Of a stretch of 38,171 nucleotides of DNA, positions 3,379 to 30,077 are shown piece by piece; position 1 is the stretch's first letter; the number at the start of each line of letters is the position of its first letter. The notes beneath the pieces are model-generated. The model did not search any database. It saw only the letters and a list, made by a program, of their open reading frames with translations, and was not told where the DNA came from. Origin of the DNA: a bacterium (lineage in GTDB: Bacteria > Patescibacteriota > Dojkabacteria > JAKAPS01). The translations under genes and the position numbers were made by a program. The stretch covers positions 1-38,171 of the forward strand of contig JAKAPS010000009.1 of NCBI GenBank assembly GCA_021806925.1, in the 5' to 3' direction.

Positions 3379-5898
3379 ATGAATGGATTTGTAAGATTAA
3401 CAGTTAACGCTAAAAACATACTTAAATATGCATTAAATTTATCCATTGAGAAAAATGGTGGGAATGTTAATGCAATATATATTCTAAAGGGTATATTAGA
3501 GTCTCCTCAATCTCTTGCATTTAAAGTTCTAAGCAGTGCTGGATTTGTTGAGAAATTACGACCAATAGTAGATAAATACATACTTGAACATGAGGAGGGT
3601 CATGTTGATATTATTGATAATGTAGAAAAGAAAGAAACAGAGCTCAGTTCTGAATTTAAGGATATATTGGAATTATCTTACATCTATGCTAAGAATGAAA
3701 GTCATGTATTTGTAGGAAGTGAGCATATATTACTTTCAATATTTTCACTAAAGAGTATAGCTGAGAAGAGTAAACTTAATGAATCAGACGTAAGACAAGC
3801 TTTACTCCCGGTTTTAAAAGAAGGTCTAACAGTAGATAATTTAGAAAAAACGCTAAATAAAATAGCGAACTATCCACTAGGTATACTTTTTAAACCTGAG
3901 TCTGGTGATGAAATGAGAAATGAACTGTTGCCAGCAATTCCATCAATCTTGCCGCTATTTGGAAGAAACCTTACATTATTAGCAAAGAAAGGGCAATTAT
4001 CTAAGATATACGGCAGAGAGAAAGAAATAAACAGGCTTATTGGAATACTAGAAAGAAGATCGAAGAACAATGCAATTCTTACTGGAGATAGTGGAGTAGG
4101 TAAAACAGCAATTGTAGAAGCACTTGCTAACAGAATAGCTACTGGATATCAGCTGCCAGATAACATGCTTGATATGGAGATATGGCAGATCGATGTTCCA
4201 AGACTACTTTCCCAAGGTGAAATGAAAGCTGATCTTGAAACGAAAATCCTTGCTATTATTCATGAAGCTGAAATAAAGGGTAATATAATATTTTTTATAG
4301 ATGAAATACACATGATATTTTCTGGTGGTTTTGGAATGCCTAACCAGGATATTGCAAGTATTCTGAAGCCATTTCTTCTTAGAGAGGATCTGCGTTTTAT
4401 TGGTGCAACAACTTCAAATGAATATCAGAAATTTATTGAAAATGACGCGGCATTAGCCAGAAGGTTTCAAAATATTCGCGTAGATGAAATTCAAAAAGAG
4501 GATGCACTTATGATATTAAATAATTCAAAACACGATTTTGAAAATTATCATGGAATATTAATAGATGATAATGCAATTGAAGTTTGTGTTGATCTTGCAA
4601 GTAAATATCTAAGTGATAGGTTTCTTCCAGATAGTGCAATTGATTTGCTTGATGAAGCATGTGCAAATATTAAGACTCAGATAACAAAGTCACCGGAAGA
4701 GTTGAGAGAGGCAAAATTGAAATTAGCCGAAGTATCTGAGAAAAAGGATAAATTAGTTGATGAGTTTAATTTTAGTGAAGCAAAAAAAATGAGAGAAATT
4801 GAAGAAGGTCTACTTGTTTTTATTGAACATACTATAAAAACATTAAAAAGAACAAGGAAGGCTACTCGTTTAAAGGTAAATGAAGAAAGTATAAGACAGG
4901 TTGTATCGAGATGGACTGGTATACCTGTTGAATCTTTAACTAACGACGAGATTAATTCATTAAAAACACTCGATGTTTCTATGAAAATGAAGATTATTGG
5001 TCAAAGTGATGCAATTCATAGAGTTGCACAGCAAATAAAGTCAGCAAAACTCGGGTTAAAATCTCCCAATAAGCCATTAGCGTCTCTCATGTTTCTAGGG
5101 CCTACTGGTGTTGGAAAAACAGAGACTGCAAAGGTTTTAAGCGACCTATTGTTTGGAAGCAGAGATAGACTTGTACAAATTGATATGAGTGAATATATGG
5201 AAAGCTATTCTGTATCTAAATTGATAGGTTCTCCTCCTGGATATATTGGATATACAGAAGGAGGTCAATTAACAGAGAAGATAAGAAGGCATCCATATAG
5301 TGTTGTTTTATTTGATGAAATTGAGAAGGCACATCCTGATGTTCTTAATATATTGTTACAAATTCTTGAAGAGGGTAGATTGACTGATAGTAAGGGGAGG
5401 GTAGCAAATTTCAAAAACACTGTAGTTATATTAACTTCAAATATTGGTGCAAGAAATATTATAGATGATTCTATTCTTGGATTTAATATACCAAAACCAG
5501 AGGATACAATTGAGAAGGAATCATATGATGATATGCGTAATTCATGTATGCAGGAGATGAAGGACGTCCTACCTCCAGAGTTGATAAACAGAATTGATGA
5601 TATAATCATATACAGAGGATTGAATGAGAAGGATATAAAGACAATTGCAAAAAATGCAGTTAATGAACTTCTATCACGATTAAGCGCTAATGGAATAACA
5701 TTGAGTATTAATAATAAGGTTATTAATTTAGTTGCATCCCAAGGTTTTTCTAAAGAATTTGGTGCAAGACCTATTCACAGGTCTATAAACGAGAATATAG
5801 AGTTCCCATTATCTGATTTTCTTTTGAGTGATATTAAAAATATGAAGAAGAAAATTACGGCAAATGTTGAAAAGGGGAAAGTAGTATTTAATGTATAA
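3379..5898 (+). CDS. clpC: ATP-dependent Clp protease ATP-binding subunit, ClpC type
   Basis: Clp_N region, two AAA+ modules (TGDSGVGKTAIVEALA; FLGPTGVGKTETAKVL), VSRWTGIPVESL linker, SPPGYIGYTEGGQLTEKIRRHPYSVVLFDEIEKAHPDVLNILLQILEEGRLTD. Confidence 0.95.
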   Translation: MNGFVRLTVNAKNILKYALNLSIEKNGGNVNAIYILKGILESPQSLAFKVLSSAGFVEKLRPIVDKYILEHEEGHVDIIDNVEKKETELSSEFKDILELSYIYAKNESHVFVGSEHILLSIFSLKSIAEKSKLNESDVRQALLPVLKEGLTVDNLEKTLNKIANYPLGILFKPESGDEMRNELLPAIPSILPLFGRNLTLLAKKGQLSKIYGREKEINRLIGILERRSKNNAILTGDSGVGKTAIVEALANRIATGYQLPDNMLDMEIWQIDVPRLLSQGEMKADLETKILAIIHEAEIKGNIIFFIDEIHMIFSGGFGMPNQDIASILKPFLLREDLRFIGATTSNEYQKFIENDAALARRFQNIRVDEIQKEDALMILNNSKHDFENYHGILIDDNAIEVCVDLASKYLSDRFLPDSAIDLLDEACANIKTQITKSPEELREAKLKLAEVSEKKDKLVDEFNFSEAKKMREIEEGLLVFIEHTIKTLKRTRKATRLKVNEESIRQVVSRWTGIPVESLTNDEINSLKTLDVSMKMKIIGQSDAIHRVAQQIKSAKLGLKSPNKPLASLMFLGPTGVGKTETAKVLSDLLFGSRDRLVQIDMSEYMESYSVSKLIGSPPGYIGYTEGGQLTEKIRRHPYSVVLFDEIEKAHPDVLNILLQILEEGRLTDSKGRVANFKNTVVILTSNIGARNIIDDSILGFNIPKPEDTIEKESYDDMRNSCMQEMKDVLPPELINRIDDIIIYRGLNEKDIKTIAKNAVNELLSRLSANGITLSINNKVINLVASQGFSKEFGARPIHRSINENIEFPLSDFLLSDIKNMKKKITANVEKGKVVFNV

Positions 5899-7240
5899 AT
5901 GTTCTAATTGCAATTCAGTTCAATCGAAATGGTCTGGTAAATGTGTAAACTGTGGTGAGTGGAACACATTAGTTGAACAGCAACAGTCTCTTCAGAATCT
6001 TAAAAATAAAAAGAAAAAAAGTACTCAGGTAAATTCTGGAGCATTTGGGGTTAGGTTACTAAGTCGTGAAGAGGGAAGTAATAAAAGGTTCTCAAGTGGA
6101 TTTAGTGAATTTGATAGGGTTTTAGGTGGCGGTTTTGTAAGCGGTGAAGTAATTCTTCTTACTGGTAATCCTGGCATTGGTAAATCAACACTTCTTTTAC
6201 AGGTGGTTGGTAATTTGATTGAAAATGGTAGTAGGTGTCTATATATTTCCAGTGAGGAATCATTTGAACAGATAAATTCAAGAGGTCTACGTGTGATTGA
6301 TGTTGAGAGGAATAAAGATTTTAATATATATACAGGAAGGATTATTGAAGAGGCTATTGATGTTGCGCTTCAATCTGAAAAATATGATTTTGTTGTTATT
6401 GACTCTATATCTACTTTTGTGTCCAATGATTATGATGGTGTTTTTGGTGGAATTGGGAATATAAAGACAGTGATATTAAAGATTCTTGATTATGCAAAAA
6501 CAACAAATACAACTGTACTTGTTGTTGGGCATGTTAATAAAGAGGGAGCTATTGCAGGTCCTAAATTGCTTGAGCATATGGTTGACGCATTAATCTTTTT
6601 AGAGGGGGATTCTCATCATGACTATAGAATGCTTAGAAGTGAAAAGAATAGATTCGGATCAAGCGGTGAGATTGGTTTTTTTGAAATGGAAGAAAAGGGG
6701 TTTAAGGAAATAAAGAATCCATCAGAGTTATTTGTTTCTAAACTTACTCAAGGAAAACCTGGAGTTGTTGTTGGTTCTGCTATTGAGGGAAATAGGTGTT
6801 TGTTTTTTGAGGTACAAACTTTACTAGCTCCTTCATTCCCACAACAGGTAAGGAGAATACCTCAGGGTATAAGTCACAATAGGCTTGTTATTCTTTCTGC
6901 TGTCGCATCAAAGTATTTAAAATTGAAGCTTGAAAATTTTGATATATATCTAAGTATTGCTGGAGGGCTAAAGGTTGATGATCCAGCAATTGATCTGTCC
7001 GTTATTATGTCTATATATTCTGCAAAAAAAGGTGTTCCAATTGCACATGAAACGCTTTGGATAGGTGAAGTAGGATTGAGTGGTGAGGTTAGGAGAATAA
7101 GGAATATTGAGAAAAGAATAGAGGAGGCCAGGGGACTTGGTGTAACAAAGGTCTATACTTCCATTCTCTATGAGAAAGAGCATAAGGGAGTTGAAATAAC
7201 AGGGTTAAAGAACATTACAGACATCTTATCCACAAAATAA
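5891..7240 (+). CDS. radA: DNA repair protein RadA
   Basis: N-terminal zinc finger CSNCNSVQSKWSGKCVNCGEW, Walker A GNPGIGKSTLLLQ, KNRFGSSGEIGFFEM (KNRFG motif), Lon-like C-terminus. Confidence 0.95.
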   Translation: MYKCSNCNSVQSKWSGKCVNCGEWNTLVEQQQSLQNLKNKKKKSTQVNSGAFGVRLLSREEGSNKRFSSGFSEFDRVLGGGFVSGEVILLTGNPGIGKSTLLLQVVGNLIENGSRCLYISSEESFEQINSRGLRVIDVERNKDFNIYTGRIIEEAIDVALQSEKYDFVVIDSISTFVSNDYDGVFGGIGNIKTVILKILDYAKTTNTTVLVVGHVNKEGAIAGPKLLEHMVDALIFLEGDSHHDYRMLRSEKNRFGSSGEIGFFEMEEKGFKEIKNPSELFVSKLTQGKPGVVVGSAIEGNRCLFFEVQTLLAPSFPQQVRRIPQGISHNRLVILSAVASKYLKLKLENFDIYLSIAGGLKVDDPAIDLSVIMSIYSAKKGVPIAHETLWIGEVGLSGEVRRIRNIEKRIEEARGLGVTKVYTSILYEKEHKGVEITGLKNITDILSTK

Positions 7241-7264
7241 GGAAGAAGGAAAGAGTTATCCACA
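7226..7264. promoter_or_regulatory. two direct DnaA-box-like sites
   Basis: TTATCCACA at 7226-7234 and 7256-7264, exactly 30 bp apart, both extending to TTATCCACAAA. Confidence 0.5.
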
Positions 7265-7329
7265 AATGCTGTTTTATATTGTAGATACTGGATAAATAGT
7301 GTGGTTACGGCAGACTACTTACTATGGGC

Positions 7330-7358
7330 TTGACAAACCTCTGGCTATAGGATATAAT
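7330..7358 (+). promoter_or_regulatory. consensus sigma70 promoter of the ncRNA candidate
   Basis: TTGACA(7330-7335)-17 nt-TATAAT(7353-7358): full consensus with optimal spacing. Confidence 0.85.
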
Positions 7359-7364
7359 AATAGT

Positions 7365-7570
7365 GTACATTAAAAATAAGGTAGGGTTAGATTGATATCA
7401 GATTCCTGAGTCTGGTTAGTAAAAGAAGCTTTACTGGGCTCTAGGATTTGATATTAATCAACTGCTTTGAAAATATGACAGATTTTGATAAGTTAGTCTA
7501 TATGAACAACAGTATAAAATAACCTATCAGGGTCGGTCGGGGCAGTGCCGATCCTGTATACCTTTTTCAT
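7365..7570 (+). ncRNA. unassigned structured RNA candidate between radA and rho
   Basis: No plausible ORF. P1 GGTAGGGTTA(7380-7389)/TAACCTATC(7520-7528); P2 GATTGATATCA(7390-7400)/TGATATTAATC(7449-7459) with apical stem GTTAGTAAA/TTTACTGG; P3 ACTG(7460-7463)/CAGT(7510-7513); final hairpin AGGGTCGG(7529-7536)/CCGATCCT(7548-7555), then CCTTTTT. Confidence 0.6.
7529..7567 (+). terminator. probable intrinsic terminator of the ncRNA candidate
   Basis: 8-bp GC-rich stem AGGGTCGG/CCGATCCT (one G-U) followed by gtatacCTTTTT; the gap before the U-tract is longer than ideal. Confidence 0.5.
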
Positions 7571-7634
7571 TTTTGCATCTTTCTGTAATATAGTGTACAA
7601 TATACTTTAGATTATATATCTCCCAATAAAAATT

Positions 7635-8915
7635 ATGAATTTAAATGAATTAGAATCAAAAAACTTAGCTCAATTGCGTAAAATTGCTAAAGAGAAGGGT
7701 GTTGTTAACATTAGTGAATTTAGCAAAGCAGAGCTTATACTTAAAATTGTTGAAAAAACAAAAACATCTCAATCAGAAGAAGGTAATATCGCTGTTGAGG
7801 GTGTCCTTGAGGTTATAAACGATGGAGCACATGGTGTGCTTAGGAGTTTAAGACTTCTTCCAGGTGATAATGATGTTTATGTTTCTGGTAGCCAAATAAA
7901 AAGATTTAATCTTAGAAAAGGTGACTATATATCTGGATTTGCAAGGGCTCCAAAAGATAATGAAAAATATTTGTCTCTTTTAAAACTTGAAAAAGTTAAT
8001 AACAAGAGTCCTGATCTAGCTGCAAAAAGAGTTCTATTCGAGCAATTAACTCCAATATTTCCTAATAAACAAATAATACTTGAAACAGAGTCTAATATAT
8101 TGTCAACAAGAATTATTGATCTTCTTGCTCCTATTGGTAAAGGTCAAAGGGGTATGATTGTTGCTCCTCCAAAATCCGGAAAGACATTCCTTTTAAAGGA
8201 TATTGCAAATGGTGTAGCTAAGAATGACCCTGAAATCCATTTAATGGTCGTTTTAATAGGAGAGAGACCTGAAGAAGTAACCGATATGAGAAGATTTGTC
8301 AAGGGCGAGGTTATTGCTTCAAACTTTGATGAGCCTCCAGAAAATCAGGTGAGAATTGCTGAACTTGCTCTTGAAAGAGCTAAAAGTTTGGTTGAAGATG
8401 GAGCAGATGTTATGATCTTAATGGATAGTCTAACAAGGCTTGCAAGAGCATATAACATGGTGTTACCAACATCTGGAAGAACTCTTTCAGGTGGTTTTGA
8501 TCCGGTTGCCCTTTATCCACCAAAAAGATTCTTTGGTGCTGCAAGAAATTTTGAAGAGAAAGGTTCTCTTACAATTATTGCAACAGCATTAGTTGATACA
8601 GGTTCAAGAATGGACGACCTTGTTTATGAAGAATTCAAAGGAACAGGGAACATGGAGCTTATGCTTGACAGGAAATTATCTGAAAGAAGAATATTTCCTT
8701 CTATTGATATTCTTCGTTCATCTACAAGAAATGAAGAACAATTATTTTCAAAAGATATGTTAAATGATTCATGGAGAGTCAGGAGAATGATTGATGCTAT
8801 ACGTAACGCTTCTGTAACTCAGGACAGAGCATATGAAGGTATTGAAGCATTCATAGATAAACTTAAGAAGACAAAAAACAATAAGGAATTCATTGCAAGT
8901 CTTTATGAGAATTAA
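7635..8915 (+). CDS. rho: transcription termination factor Rho
   Basis: Rho N-terminal region, [68 protein letters not shown]. Confidence 0.96.
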
Positions 8916-15828: not shown

Positions 15829-16836
15829 TTATGATCTTGAAGTAATGAATTCATACGAATTAACAACGTTGATTGGTGTGCCTCCTTTTCGATAAGTATC
15901 TATTTCCTGTAGGATATTTTCGAAATTGCTTCCGTTTAAGCTTTTCTCATTAATTAACGATATCAAACTATCTGTTATCGTATTATATTTTATATTTTCA
16001 TTCGGCTTTCTGTAATCAAAGATAGAAAGAGACAATTTTTCATATAAAGGAATGAATGATTCAATAAAAGATTCAAGTGCTGCATTATCAGCGATGAAGG
16101 GTTTTAGATCATTGATGATATCATTTTTATAGGCATTAAAAGTAGTAAGAACTTTTCTGTCAAGATTTATCTTAAATTCTAAATCTGCCTGAATATGTAA
16201 GTCTTTATCAAGCTCTTGAAGATCTGGTCGTATTCCTTTTTCCAAGAACCATAAAAGATCAAAATAATCTCTTCCTTTAGGGATAGATCTATTTTCTCGG
16301 CCTATTTTCTTGTCTCTAGTAAAGATGGCATTTACTTTCCCGGTAAATAAAAGAGGAAGTGGATATGCTTTTATAATGTAACTTTGTCTTGGGATAAGAT
16401 CAGGCTTTGTATTTGAAAAGGATGTCTTTTGTATATCAAGCTTAACATATAATATCTCACTTTCACTTGCATTACTTACTCCTAACATCCGTAAAATCGG
16501 AAATTTTAATGTAATTGTCTGGTTATTATTAGTTACAGATGCATAGATATCATCATATGCAAGTTCTCTTTTAAAATACTGTATTAAGTCATCTTTGAGA
16601 TTGTTGATGTTAACTGATTCTATGAAATCGAGGTCAATATCTTCTGAAAGTCTAGGTAACTCATAACATATTCTCAGGCAAGTTCCTCCCTTGAAAAGTA
16701 AATTTCTATAAGTAACAGATGTATAGATGTATTCTAATATATATTCAATAAGAGACATCTTTAGTATACTCCTCAGATACTCTGGTCTGTCTTTGCGGTC
16801 TTTTTCAATTATTTGTTTTAACTTTTCAAGAAACAT
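15829..16836 (-). CDS. AbiEii/AbiGii-type nucleotidyltransferase toxin
   Basis: LLFKGGTCLRICYELPRLSEDIDLDFIE (nucleotidyltransferase GGT...SEDIDLD), plus RDYFDLLWFL; overlaps the upstream antitoxin gene. Confidence 0.85.
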   Translation of the reverse strand: MFLEKLKQIIEKDRKDRPEYLRSILKMSLIEYILEYIYTSVTYRNLLFKGGTCLRICYELPRLSEDIDLDFIESVNINNLKDDLIQYFKRELAYDDIYASVTNNNQTITLKFPILRMLGVSNASESEILYVKLDIQKTSFSNTKPDLIPRQSYIIKAYPLPLLFTGKVNAIFTRDKKIGRENRSIPKGRDYFDLLWFLEKGIRPDLQELDKDLHIQADLEFKINLDRKVLTTFNAYKNDIINDLKPFIADNAALESFIESFIPLYEKLSLSIFDYRKPNENIKYNTITDSLISLINEKSLNGSNFENILQEIDTYRKGGTPINVVNSYEFITSRS

Positions 16837-27188: not shown

Positions 27189-28742
27189 ATGGCAAGTAAG
27201 TTTCAGCCTCTTAAGATTCTATTTGTTGCTGCAGAAGTTGCTCCGTATACAAAGTTTGGTGGATTGGCCGATGTTGCGTGGGCACTTCCAAGGGAACTAA
27301 AATCACTTGGTCACGATGTTAAAATAATTATCCCAAAGTATGGAAGTATTGATACAGAAAAATTCAATATAAAAAAATACAGGGATAATATAGTCGTAAA
27401 GACAAAAAGTGGAGATATAGTATCGAATATATATAAAGGAATAATACCCGATAATATAGAGGTCTTCCTGGTAGAAAATAGAGAATACTATGAGCTTAGA
27501 AGTAATGTCTACGGGTATAGCGATGACGCTAGGAGGTTTATGCTTTTATCATTAGCAGCACTTGAATTTGTTAGAGGTGAAGATTTCAATCTAGATGTAA
27601 TCCATGCTAATGATTGGCATACTGGATATCTTCCGAACCTACTTAAAACTGTATATAAGAATGATGAAAAACTAAACTCCATATCAACAGTTTTTACTAT
27701 TCATAACCTTTCTCTTCAAGGAATTAACAAGAGAGCATTAAAACCAACTGAAATTGATCAAGGGAATTCACCATTACCGGATTTAATGAGTGATGATATC
27801 AATAAGATAAATGGACTGCTAAGAGGGATAATATATTCCGACTTTGTAAACACTGTTTCTGAAAGATATGCTAGAGAAATATTAACTCCAGAGTTTGGAG
27901 AGGGGTTAGACCCTGTTCTAAAAGAAATGCGATACAAATTAACAGGAATACGTAATGGACTTGACTATAAAGTGTTAAGTCCTGATGTAGATACTAATAT
28001 TTATGTTAATTATGATTTAAATTCAATAGAAAAAAAAGTAGAAAATAAGATTGAGTTTCAGAAGGAATTTGACTTAGAGGTTAATCCTGATATTCCATTA
28101 ATTGGGTTTGTTGGAAGACTGACTGAAATGAAAGGACTTGGTTTAATGCATGATACACTGGGACCTCTCCTTGAAAACCTTAATTTTCAATTCTGTGTTG
28201 TTGGTGGCGGTGATGAATATTGGGAGAATTTCTTTTTGAAATTAATAGAGAAATATCCAAAGAAAGTAGCTGGTCATGTTATGATATCAACAACATTTGC
28301 ACAAAAATTGTTTGCTGCTACAGATATATTTCTTTATCCATCTAAGTTTGAACCTTGTGGTATAGCGCATGCTATAGCAATGAGATTTGGCTCTGTTCCT
28401 ATTGTTAGAGAAACTGGTGGGCTTGCAGACAGTGTAGTTGATGTAAATAAGTACCCTGATAAGGGTGAGGGCTTTATGTTTAAAGAATACGATAAGATGG
28501 AATTCCTTATCCAATTAATTGAAGCTATAACTATATACAAATACAATAGGGGAGAATGGAATAGAATAAGGGAGAGAGCGATGAAAAGAGACCTGTCATG
28601 GAAAAATTCTGCAATTAAATATGTACATGTTTATGAGAAAGCTATTGATAAACATGATAAATGGATGAAAAGAGAGAATCTTAGATATCCAGATAATCCC
28701 GGTGAGGTTCCAGGATATTCTGCAATGGAAGTTTTAAGTTAA
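27189..28742 (+). CDS. glgA: glycogen/starch synthase-like GT5 glycosyltransferase
   Basis: ILFVAAEVAPYTKFGGLADVAWALPRELKSLGHDVKIIIPKY, VIHANDWHTGYLP, FTIHNLSLQG, GIRNGLDY, FLYPSKFEPCGIAHAIAMRFGSVPIVRETGGLADSV. Confidence 0.93.
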   Translation: MASKFQPLKILFVAAEVAPYTKFGGLADVAWALPRELKSLGHDVKIIIPKYGSIDTEKFNIKKYRDNIVVKTKSGDIVSNIYKGIIPDNIEVFLVENREYYELRSNVYGYSDDARRFMLLSLAALEFVRGEDFNLDVIHANDWHTGYLPNLLKTVYKNDEKLNSISTVFTIHNLSLQGINKRALKPTEIDQGNSPLPDLMSDDINKINGLLRGIIYSDFVNTVSERYAREILTPEFGEGLDPVLKEMRYKLTGIRNGLDYKVLSPDVDTNIYVNYDLNSIEKKVENKIEFQKEFDLEVNPDIPLIGFVGRLTEMKGLGLMHDTLGPLLENLNFQFCVVGGGDEYWENFFLKLIEKYPKKVAGHVMISTTFAQKLFAATDIFLYPSKFEPCGIAHAIAMRFGSVPIVRETGGLADSVVDVNKYPDKGEGFMFKEYDKMEFLIQLIEAITIYKYNRGEWNRIRERAMKRDLSWKNSAIKYVHVYEKAIDKHDKWMKRENLRYPDNPGEVPGYSAMEVLS

Positions 28743-28825
28743 ATATATTAGGCAAAATCGATTCATCTTCAATTCATGTTTAATTGATAATGAGTTTTAT
28801 ATTGTTACCTTACATTATCCTGTGC

Positions 28826-28854
28826 TTATTTATTTATTTATTTATTTATTTTTT
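28826..28854. repeat. TTTA tetranucleotide microsatellite
   Basis: TTATTTATTTATTTATTTATTTATTTTTT. Confidence 0.8.
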
Positions 28855-29573
28855 CTATTGCCATACATCATTGATATTTTAATATATTCAATTGCGCATC
28901 AGTATATACGAATATATATGGAAGGGAATATATACAAAGAGAGTAAATATATAATTAAAGATAAGCGAATTGATAATAAGTTTTAAATAAAATAGCTAAT
29001 TATGTTCTTTTGTTAAACCAAAGGAAACACTCAATATATTCTATCTAGAGATTTTAAAGCACATTTATAGTTTTACAACATGTCAGATGAAGTCTTGTGC
29101 CTGATATATAAATAGATTTTTACTGACAGCATATAATATATAGGTCATATAATTTCATGAGAATGTTTAAGTAATATAAATATTCTTATATTTTTTTCCT
29201 TATTAAATTGTTCGAGTGTATAAAGTTATAAACAATATTATCCACAATAAACCCCATAGTATATACGACACTAAAATATGATTCAAGCGTTACTTTACCG
29301 GGGTTTCTAAGTGTAAATATCAAAGAGTAATCCTCTTTTGATTTATAAATATTGTGCATTTAACATATAAGTGGAAATATTTATACATAAACTGAAGCAG
29401 AAGAGAAGGGGATTGTAAAGATGCTTGATACTATAGGTTTTTAATATGTGCTATACCTGTAATCCGTTTTAACATCCTGTAATTTTCTTTATAATTATTA
29501 ACTGGAGTTATATATTATCTTATTTGTTATATATTTTTATATCGAATTTCTGAAGTATTTGTTTTTAGGAATA

Positions 29574-29607
29574 AAAAAGCCTGTAAAGATAAATTTACAG
29601 GCTTTTT
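29574..29607 (-). terminator. intrinsic terminator of the rplJ-rplL operon (bidirectional form)
   Basis: AAAAAGCCTGTAAA(29574-29587)-GATAAA-TTTACAGGCTTTTT(29594-29607), 14-bp perfect stem. Confidence 0.93.
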
Positions 29608-29666
29608 GTCGAATTATTTGGATAGAAATATATATTTTTAATAATTAAATATATATGTATATTACC

Positions 29667-30077
29667 TTATTTTAATTCAACAACTGCACCAGCATCTTTA
29701 AGGAGTTTCAAATATTTATCTGCATCATCCTTATTTAATGCTTGTTTTACAATCTTTTCTGCACTATCTGATGCTTCTACCATTGCTTTAGCATCCATCA
29801 AATTTAATTCAGGTAATATTACTCTTATTGCTTTAATAACTTCAAGCTTCTTGCTACCTGAACCCTTAAGTACTAGATCAAATGATGTTTTTTCTTCTAC
29901 TGGAGCTTCCTGAGTATTGCTACCTTGAGTATTTACAGGACCTGCCATCATCATTCCCTGTGATGCACTTACTCCAAACTTTTCTTCAAGTGCTTTTACT
30001 AATTCTGATAATTCAACGACTGTTAAATTGCTTATTGCATCTAACAATTCATCTTTTGTTAATGATTTGCTTGCCAT
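29667..30077 (-). CDS. rplL: ribosomal protein L7/L12
   Basis: LTVVELSELVKALEEKFGVSA, SFDLVLKGSGSKKLEVIKAIR, DAKAMVEAS, LLKDAGAVVELK. Confidence 0.95.
   Translation of the reverse strand: MASKSLTKDELLDAISNLTVVELSELVKALEEKFGVSASQGMMMAGPVNTQGSNTQEAPVEEKTSFDLVLKGSGSKKLEVIKAIRVILPELNLMDAKAMVEASDSAEKIVKQALNKDDADKYLKLLKDAGAVVELK

Follow-up and report, generated by a model that had tools for sequence, protein, structure and literature searches.

The sRNAs CsrB/C sequester protein and have GGA loops as their signature. In enterobacteria Rho autoregulates its own expression, and the sRNA SraL acts on the rho leader and pairs with it (PMC6582626). Comparative genomics has also yielded orphan structured RNAs, which are supported by covariation and have no assigned function (PMC2864571). 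Patescibacteria are largely uncultured, and their non-coding RNAs have hardly been charted. Here we describe an RNA lying between radA and rho in a Dojkabacteria (WS6) genome of 928,548 bases. The window, i.e. the whole stretch of 38,171 nt that was analysed, is contig C1 of this genome and encodes S1, ClpC, RadA, Rho and LeuS; its Rho is most similar to those of Dojkabacteria (WS6) genomes.

The RNA has points in common with each of these systems. With SraL and rho leader autoregulation it would share control at the RNA level connected with rho. Unlike SraL, to which we found no relation in sequence or structure, it is a separate structured gene located next to rho; its hairpins covary, and no pairing is known for it. 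It resembles CsrB/C in its repeated hairpin modules, its conserved loop signatures and a possible titration of protein, but the signature is GGGGCAGU or a helix with wobbles and a mismatch, the number of modules is one to three, and it is linked to rho. Its covariation and unassigned function are those of the orphan RNAs, from which it differs by the lack of a match in Rfam 15, its restriction to Patescibacteria and its link to rho. We regard it as an undescribed RNA family, categorically new as a family, whose mode of action may be of a known kind, that of a regulatory protein-binding RNA. We found no report of this RNA in the part of the literature covered, with most subscription journals and preprints lying outside.

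The gene is recognizable from its signals (Table 1). The sequence TTGACA-17-TATAAT at 7330–7358 scores 12/12 and is the only such site within 6800–8200, so that the perfect-consensus promoter claimed in the initial annotation is real. The TATRGGS extension 5' of the -35 box is common to 31/33 promoters of the class, and a similar extension is found in two loci outside of it, L146 and L147. No ORF of at least 40 aa is present in the radA–rho gap (7241–7634) and stops interrupt all three forward frames of the predicted transcript, in agreement with the region having been called ORF-free. The GC-rich hairpin followed by a T-run could likewise be located, and T-rich tails 3' of this hairpin occur in other class members too. 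The locus is thus a real independent non-coding RNA gene consisting of a promoter, about 200 nt devoid of an ORF and an intrinsic terminator, followed by rho; we infer that it is transcribed.

Table 1. Features of the radA–rho region, in window coordinates
Feature	Position	Strand	Remarks
radA	5891..7240	+	5' neighbour of the RNA in most of the class
Two exact DnaA-box-type sites	7226..7234 and 7256..7264	+	TTATCCACA; upstream of the RNA promoter
RNA promoter	7323..7358	+	TATGGGC + TTGACA-17-TATAAT
Predicted transcript (~200 nt)	about 7365..7567	+	5' end placed by the -10 box, 3' end by the T-run
Hairpin H	7392..7457	+	C-A mismatch; core GTCTGG 7410–7415 / CTGGGC 7434–7439
Hairpin P4	7487..7528	+	GATAAGTTA...TAACCTATC; adjoins P5, as in relatives
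Hairpin P5, stem of the intrinsic terminator	7528..7556	+	CAGGGTCGGT - loop C GGGGCAGT - GCCGATCCTG; GGGGCAGT at 7539–7546
T-run, terminator tail	7563..7567	+	3' of P5
Candidate rho promoter (weak)	7572..7601	+	TTTGCA-18-TACAAT, 9/12
rho	7635..8915	+	conserved 3' neighbour of the RNA

The predicted transcript (7364–7568) folds with -66.0 kcal/mol as compared to -42.3 ± 4.5 kcal/mol for shuffled sequences (z -5.3), and none of 200 shuffles folded as well. The conserved fold consists of the separate hairpins H, P4 and P5 and is not the closed three-way junction that had been drawn by eye, two of whose three arms turned out to be wrong. The drawn P2 (7390–7400/7449–7459) is real and forms the base of the longer hairpin H. 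For the closing stem P1 (7380–7389/7520–7528) the pair probabilities do not exceed 0.16. Its 3' strand is part of P4, whose pairs have probabilities of 0.80–0.84 in the ensemble; a closed junction is therefore unsupported. P4 is found at the same position in homologues. The proposed P3 (ACTG/CAGT with an inner ATATGAC/GTCTATAT stem) would pair the invariant loop of P5 and is not seen in relatives. A pseudoknot between the P5 loop and the 3' strand of H was also considered and found on inspection not to be conserved across relatives.

Covariation across homologues, which the initial annotation had named as a check, is strong for both H and P5. The alignment of H is gapless over 24 base positions per side with 95.4% of cells paired. 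Changes on both sides occur in 16/23 pairs, and the covariation score is 0.633 compared to 0.18 for shuffled alignments, with a sharp drop when the two strands are slid against each other. For P5, 29 distinct sequences taken from both class and phylum showed 95.7% pairing and both-side changes in 7/8 pairs, with a score of 0.823 versus 0.237 shuffled; since these sequences were gathered under the requirement of at least 6/8 pairs the paired percentage is biased, the both-side changes less so. Against these varying stems some elements stay fixed. GGGCAGU of the P5 loop is invariant in all 29 distinct sequences. In H the mismatch (C7406/A7443 in the window, adjoined there by U7407/U7442) is conserved, and inspection of the alignment rows shows the C at column 15 facing A, U or C. 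The three innermost pairs of the core, U-G, G-U and G-C, never vary.

The same gene lies 5' of rho in Dojkabacteria loci, with a strong promoter, one or two H hairpins, small hairpins and P5 followed by a T-rich tail. We built two covariance models, R1 from the 3' part of the RNA as trained on the class, and R2 from H. R1 detects the RNA in 45/58 class genomes with one copy each, and R2 finds H in 9 of the 13 genomes that gave no R1 match (L209–L212, L214–L217, L219), which together gives 54/58. Of the remaining four, three (G025, G053 and G056) have assemblies without rho, and in G017 the RNA was undetected. R2 matches H of the window at 55.6 bits and gave no other match in 453 kb; in the complete class genome G024 (733,750 bases) its sole matches are the RNA's two H modules. 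The modules can also occur on their own: family f11 has a promoter and H only, in one or two copies and without P5, whereas G064, G070 and G085 have P5 only and G016 has two P5-type loops. Such P5-only or H-only forms span 40–120 nt. BLAST candidates for second copies of the RNA in the genome of the window proved to be coding or chance matches. One Dojkabacteria genome carries two full copies in tandem (L042, 2557–2860).

At gathering thresholds Rfam reported tRNAs only in the window and nothing on the RNA, and at loose thresholds just chance matches of the eukaryotic miRNA or lncRNA type. Twenty homologous loci of the class and 20 other rho loci gave known tRNA and tmRNA only. With neither the window RNA nor its homologues matching a family, and with strong covariation, the claim of an undescribed structured RNA of about 200 nt stands. 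That the RNA is a known housekeeping RNA diverged past recognition is already contradicted and has next to no probability left. In its favour, SRP RNA was not found in the 58 class genomes. However, the RNA gives no match to the SRP RNA models (RF00169/RF01854) and has no GNRA/AGCAG SRP core, and G024 is devoid of an SRP (Ffh/FtsY-type) GTPase motif, motifs of the EF-Tu, EF-G, IF2 and LepA type being found there. The whole SRP pathway therefore seems to be absent from G024 and may have been lost in Dojkabacteria. There is likewise no match to RNase P RNA (RF00010), a true copy of which is located in the same genome (G000:C10:81295–81628), or to tmRNA (RF00023), whose tRNA-like ends and tag ORF the RNA lacks; the true tmRNA is encoded at another place in G024 and, in family f9, as a neighbour of the RNA. 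The initial annotation had already set the RNA apart from all three.

It had also considered a diverged 6S RNA (RF00013), which neither the architecture nor Rfam supports. A housekeeping role appears quite improbable to us, for instance that of 6S RNA, which binds RNA polymerase and serves as a template for product RNAs. The RNA is similar to 6S RNA in being a stable-RNA-like gene of about 200 nt; it is universal in the class, single-copy and equipped with a very strong promoter, and 6S RNA itself was not found in the genome of the window. On the other hand it is modular, with separate hairpins and a terminator instead of the single long hairpin whose central bubble mimics an open promoter, and 20 homologue loci gave no Rfam 6S match. 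The short P5-only and H-only forms do not fit 6S RNA either, and such a role would leave the link to rho unexplained.

The position in front of rho raises the question of a cis-acting leader or attenuator, in which transcripts of the strong promoter stop at P5 and either regulated read-through or a 5' leader hairpin sets rho expression. Indeed, most lineages of the phylum have rho next to the RNA on its 3' side, within the class P5 serves as a terminator, and the enterobacterial rho leader provides a precedent (PMC6582626). Within the class, however, a promoter scoring at least 10/12 is found between P5 and rho in 34/35 loci, as compared to 8% of shuffles; the window itself has 9/12 at a place where relatives score 10–12/12. 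Furthermore the RNA is kept where it is not linked to rho. In several genomes of family f2 it precedes rplJ-rplL with rho about 6 kb off on the opposite strand. In f9 it adjoins tmRNA far from rho, at a distance of 240 kb in G009 and on another contig in G016, and in G085 the two are again on different contigs. Conserved antiterminator pairing of P5 was not found on inspection of relatives. Because of the separate rho promoter and the persistence of the RNA where rho is not adjacent, we consider the RNA an independent trans-acting gene in the class. A rho-regulating leader had been suggested initially; the RNA does have a real, phylum-wide link to rho, but a pure leader is unlikely in the class, and we regard control of rho in cis as an unlikely overall explanation that still deserves attention. 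As a side observation, the f2 loci (L150, L152, L016) differ from the window (7.6–30.6 kb) by an inversion with the RNA/rho and rplJ/rplA junctions as its endpoints, so that rplJ-rplL follows the RNA and rho follows rplA.

Outside the class the situation may differ. A simple scan found a promoter of at least 10/12 just upstream of 2/34 hairpins and a T-run at 5/34; since most hairpins have neither adjacent to them, cis and trans forms may not be the same. Tiny units of promoter and hairpin are present in L146, L147 and L148. In WWE3-like loci the hairpin has no separate promoter and forms part of the intergenic leader immediately 5' of rho, as a cis-acting leader would have it.

We then compared the regions upstream of rho in 49 Patescibacteria loci outside the class (31.7 kb). 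In the 650 nt preceding rho we counted 28 copies of GGGGCAGT, each of them a hairpin loop on the sense strand. A background of 800 kb from 20 of the same genomes, searched on both strands, contained 12 occurrences with one in a hairpin. This corresponds to odds of about 700 (Fisher 5e-39), a p-value that overstates independence because loci and genomes share descent. With the shorter core GGGCAG a hairpin is found in 37/49 loci, while control cores give few and the overlapping shifted cores GGCAGG and GCAGGG 12 and 5, respectively. In other phyla, 13 rho loci gave no P5-type hairpin upstream of the gene, and 15/49 rho loci outside the class had none within 700 nt. A search with the DNA pattern GGTNGGGGCAGTNCC, which is too strict for WWE3-type stems, over 380 genomes returned essentially only these loci. 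Upstream of the RNA the gene varies by lineage, being RadA, sortase-like, PIN/TRAM-like or S41-peptidase-like as named from translations; rho remains the neighbour. Of the RNA-positive genomes in the phylum sample 34/34 have rho, in comparison to just 100 of all 380 sampled genomes, a co-occurrence confounded by taxonomy because R1 was trained on the class, in which rho is nearly always present.

Conserved recognition-type signatures on covarying stems, a feature of protein-binding regulatory sRNAs, are present here. Mismatch, wobbles and loop stay invariant on helices which vary freely, so they are probably recognized by another molecule, most simply a protein. The steady company of rho and its presence in 34/34 RNA-positive genomes make Rho or a partner of Rho the best candidate. 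The gene, its fold, covariation and modularity, its linkage to rho and its independence from rho in several lineages are computational observations; on this ground we tentatively favour, as a reading that is possible but short of probable, a trans-acting protein-binding regulatory RNA of the Rho circuit, of which we infer the partner and the direction of the effect. The RNA would be a discrete, promoter-driven and intrinsically terminated sRNA composed of the separable modules H and P5, each with an invariant non-helical signature, which in H consists of the mismatch together with the tandem wobbles and in P5 of the GGGGCAGU loop. Rho itself or its partner would bind these signatures, and the RNA would tune the amount or activity of Rho in trans. 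Other lineages of Patescibacteria have a P5-type hairpin within the rho leader or close to it, and there the same effect could be exerted in cis. Modules do swap, with H alone in f11 and P5 alone in other classes.

Alternatively the GGGGCAGU loop could be the seed of a base-pairing antisense sRNA. Seeds typically are exposed loops that stay constant on a changing stem, as is the case here. On the other hand, we saw no conserved complement inside the RNA, one seed for the whole phylum would need a target conserved to the same degree, and the H signature lies inside a helix and thus points to recognition by protein. We consider base pairing improbable.

A protein-binding RNA of the Rho circuit has against it that the ligands known for Rho are unstructured and rich in C. 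In its favour we count a change in the RNP1 RNA-binding motif of Rho, which reads DGFGFLR in E. coli. In Rho of the window this motif (residues about 60–71) is replaced with respect to its FGF aromatics. Most of the class has NDG[AST]HGVLR and many other Patescibacteria have GHGFLR or GHGVLR. A near-universal class RNA with invariant signatures, tied to rho though most genomes of the phylum lack rho, points to an unknown control of termination. The motif of 25 nt is defined and open to direct test with purified Rho and existing metatranscriptomes.

The promoter of the RNA is accompanied by DnaA-box-like sites. Allowing up to one mismatch, 46 of them are present in the promoter regions of 33 class loci (L010–L058), where 1.4 are expected from the flanks and 1.5 from the whole-genome rate, although the effective number is smaller because the loci are related. 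In the large family they are located about 20 nt before and about 51 nt after the start of the -35 box. The strong enrichment of the sites suggests control of the RNA promoter by DnaA. A wider scheme, in which the hairpin RNA would be a dedicated ligand of a Rho with remodelled RNA-binding motif, termination would be controlled in this way throughout the phylum, and the DnaA-box-flanked promoter would couple termination to the replication state, seems doubtful to us. A replication origin at the RNA was rejected: there is no skew flip at 7.3 kb of the window, and in G024 dnaA is about 54 kb away. Elsewhere in the window, an AT-rich intergenic region of 925 nt (28742–29667) contains one exact TTATCCACA at 29238 and is found near a local GC-skew reversal and convergent genes.

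A loop of the P5 type was also seen apart from rho. Two genomes have a putative rod-shaped RNA with a promoter and a GUGGGCAGG loop in the gap from glgA to a GH57-like gene (L275 at about 7600–7760; L287 at about 16500–16640 on the reverse strand), the L275 copy being without an Rfam match. The occurrence of a GGGCAG-loop hairpin at this place means that the loop may serve something broader than Rho.
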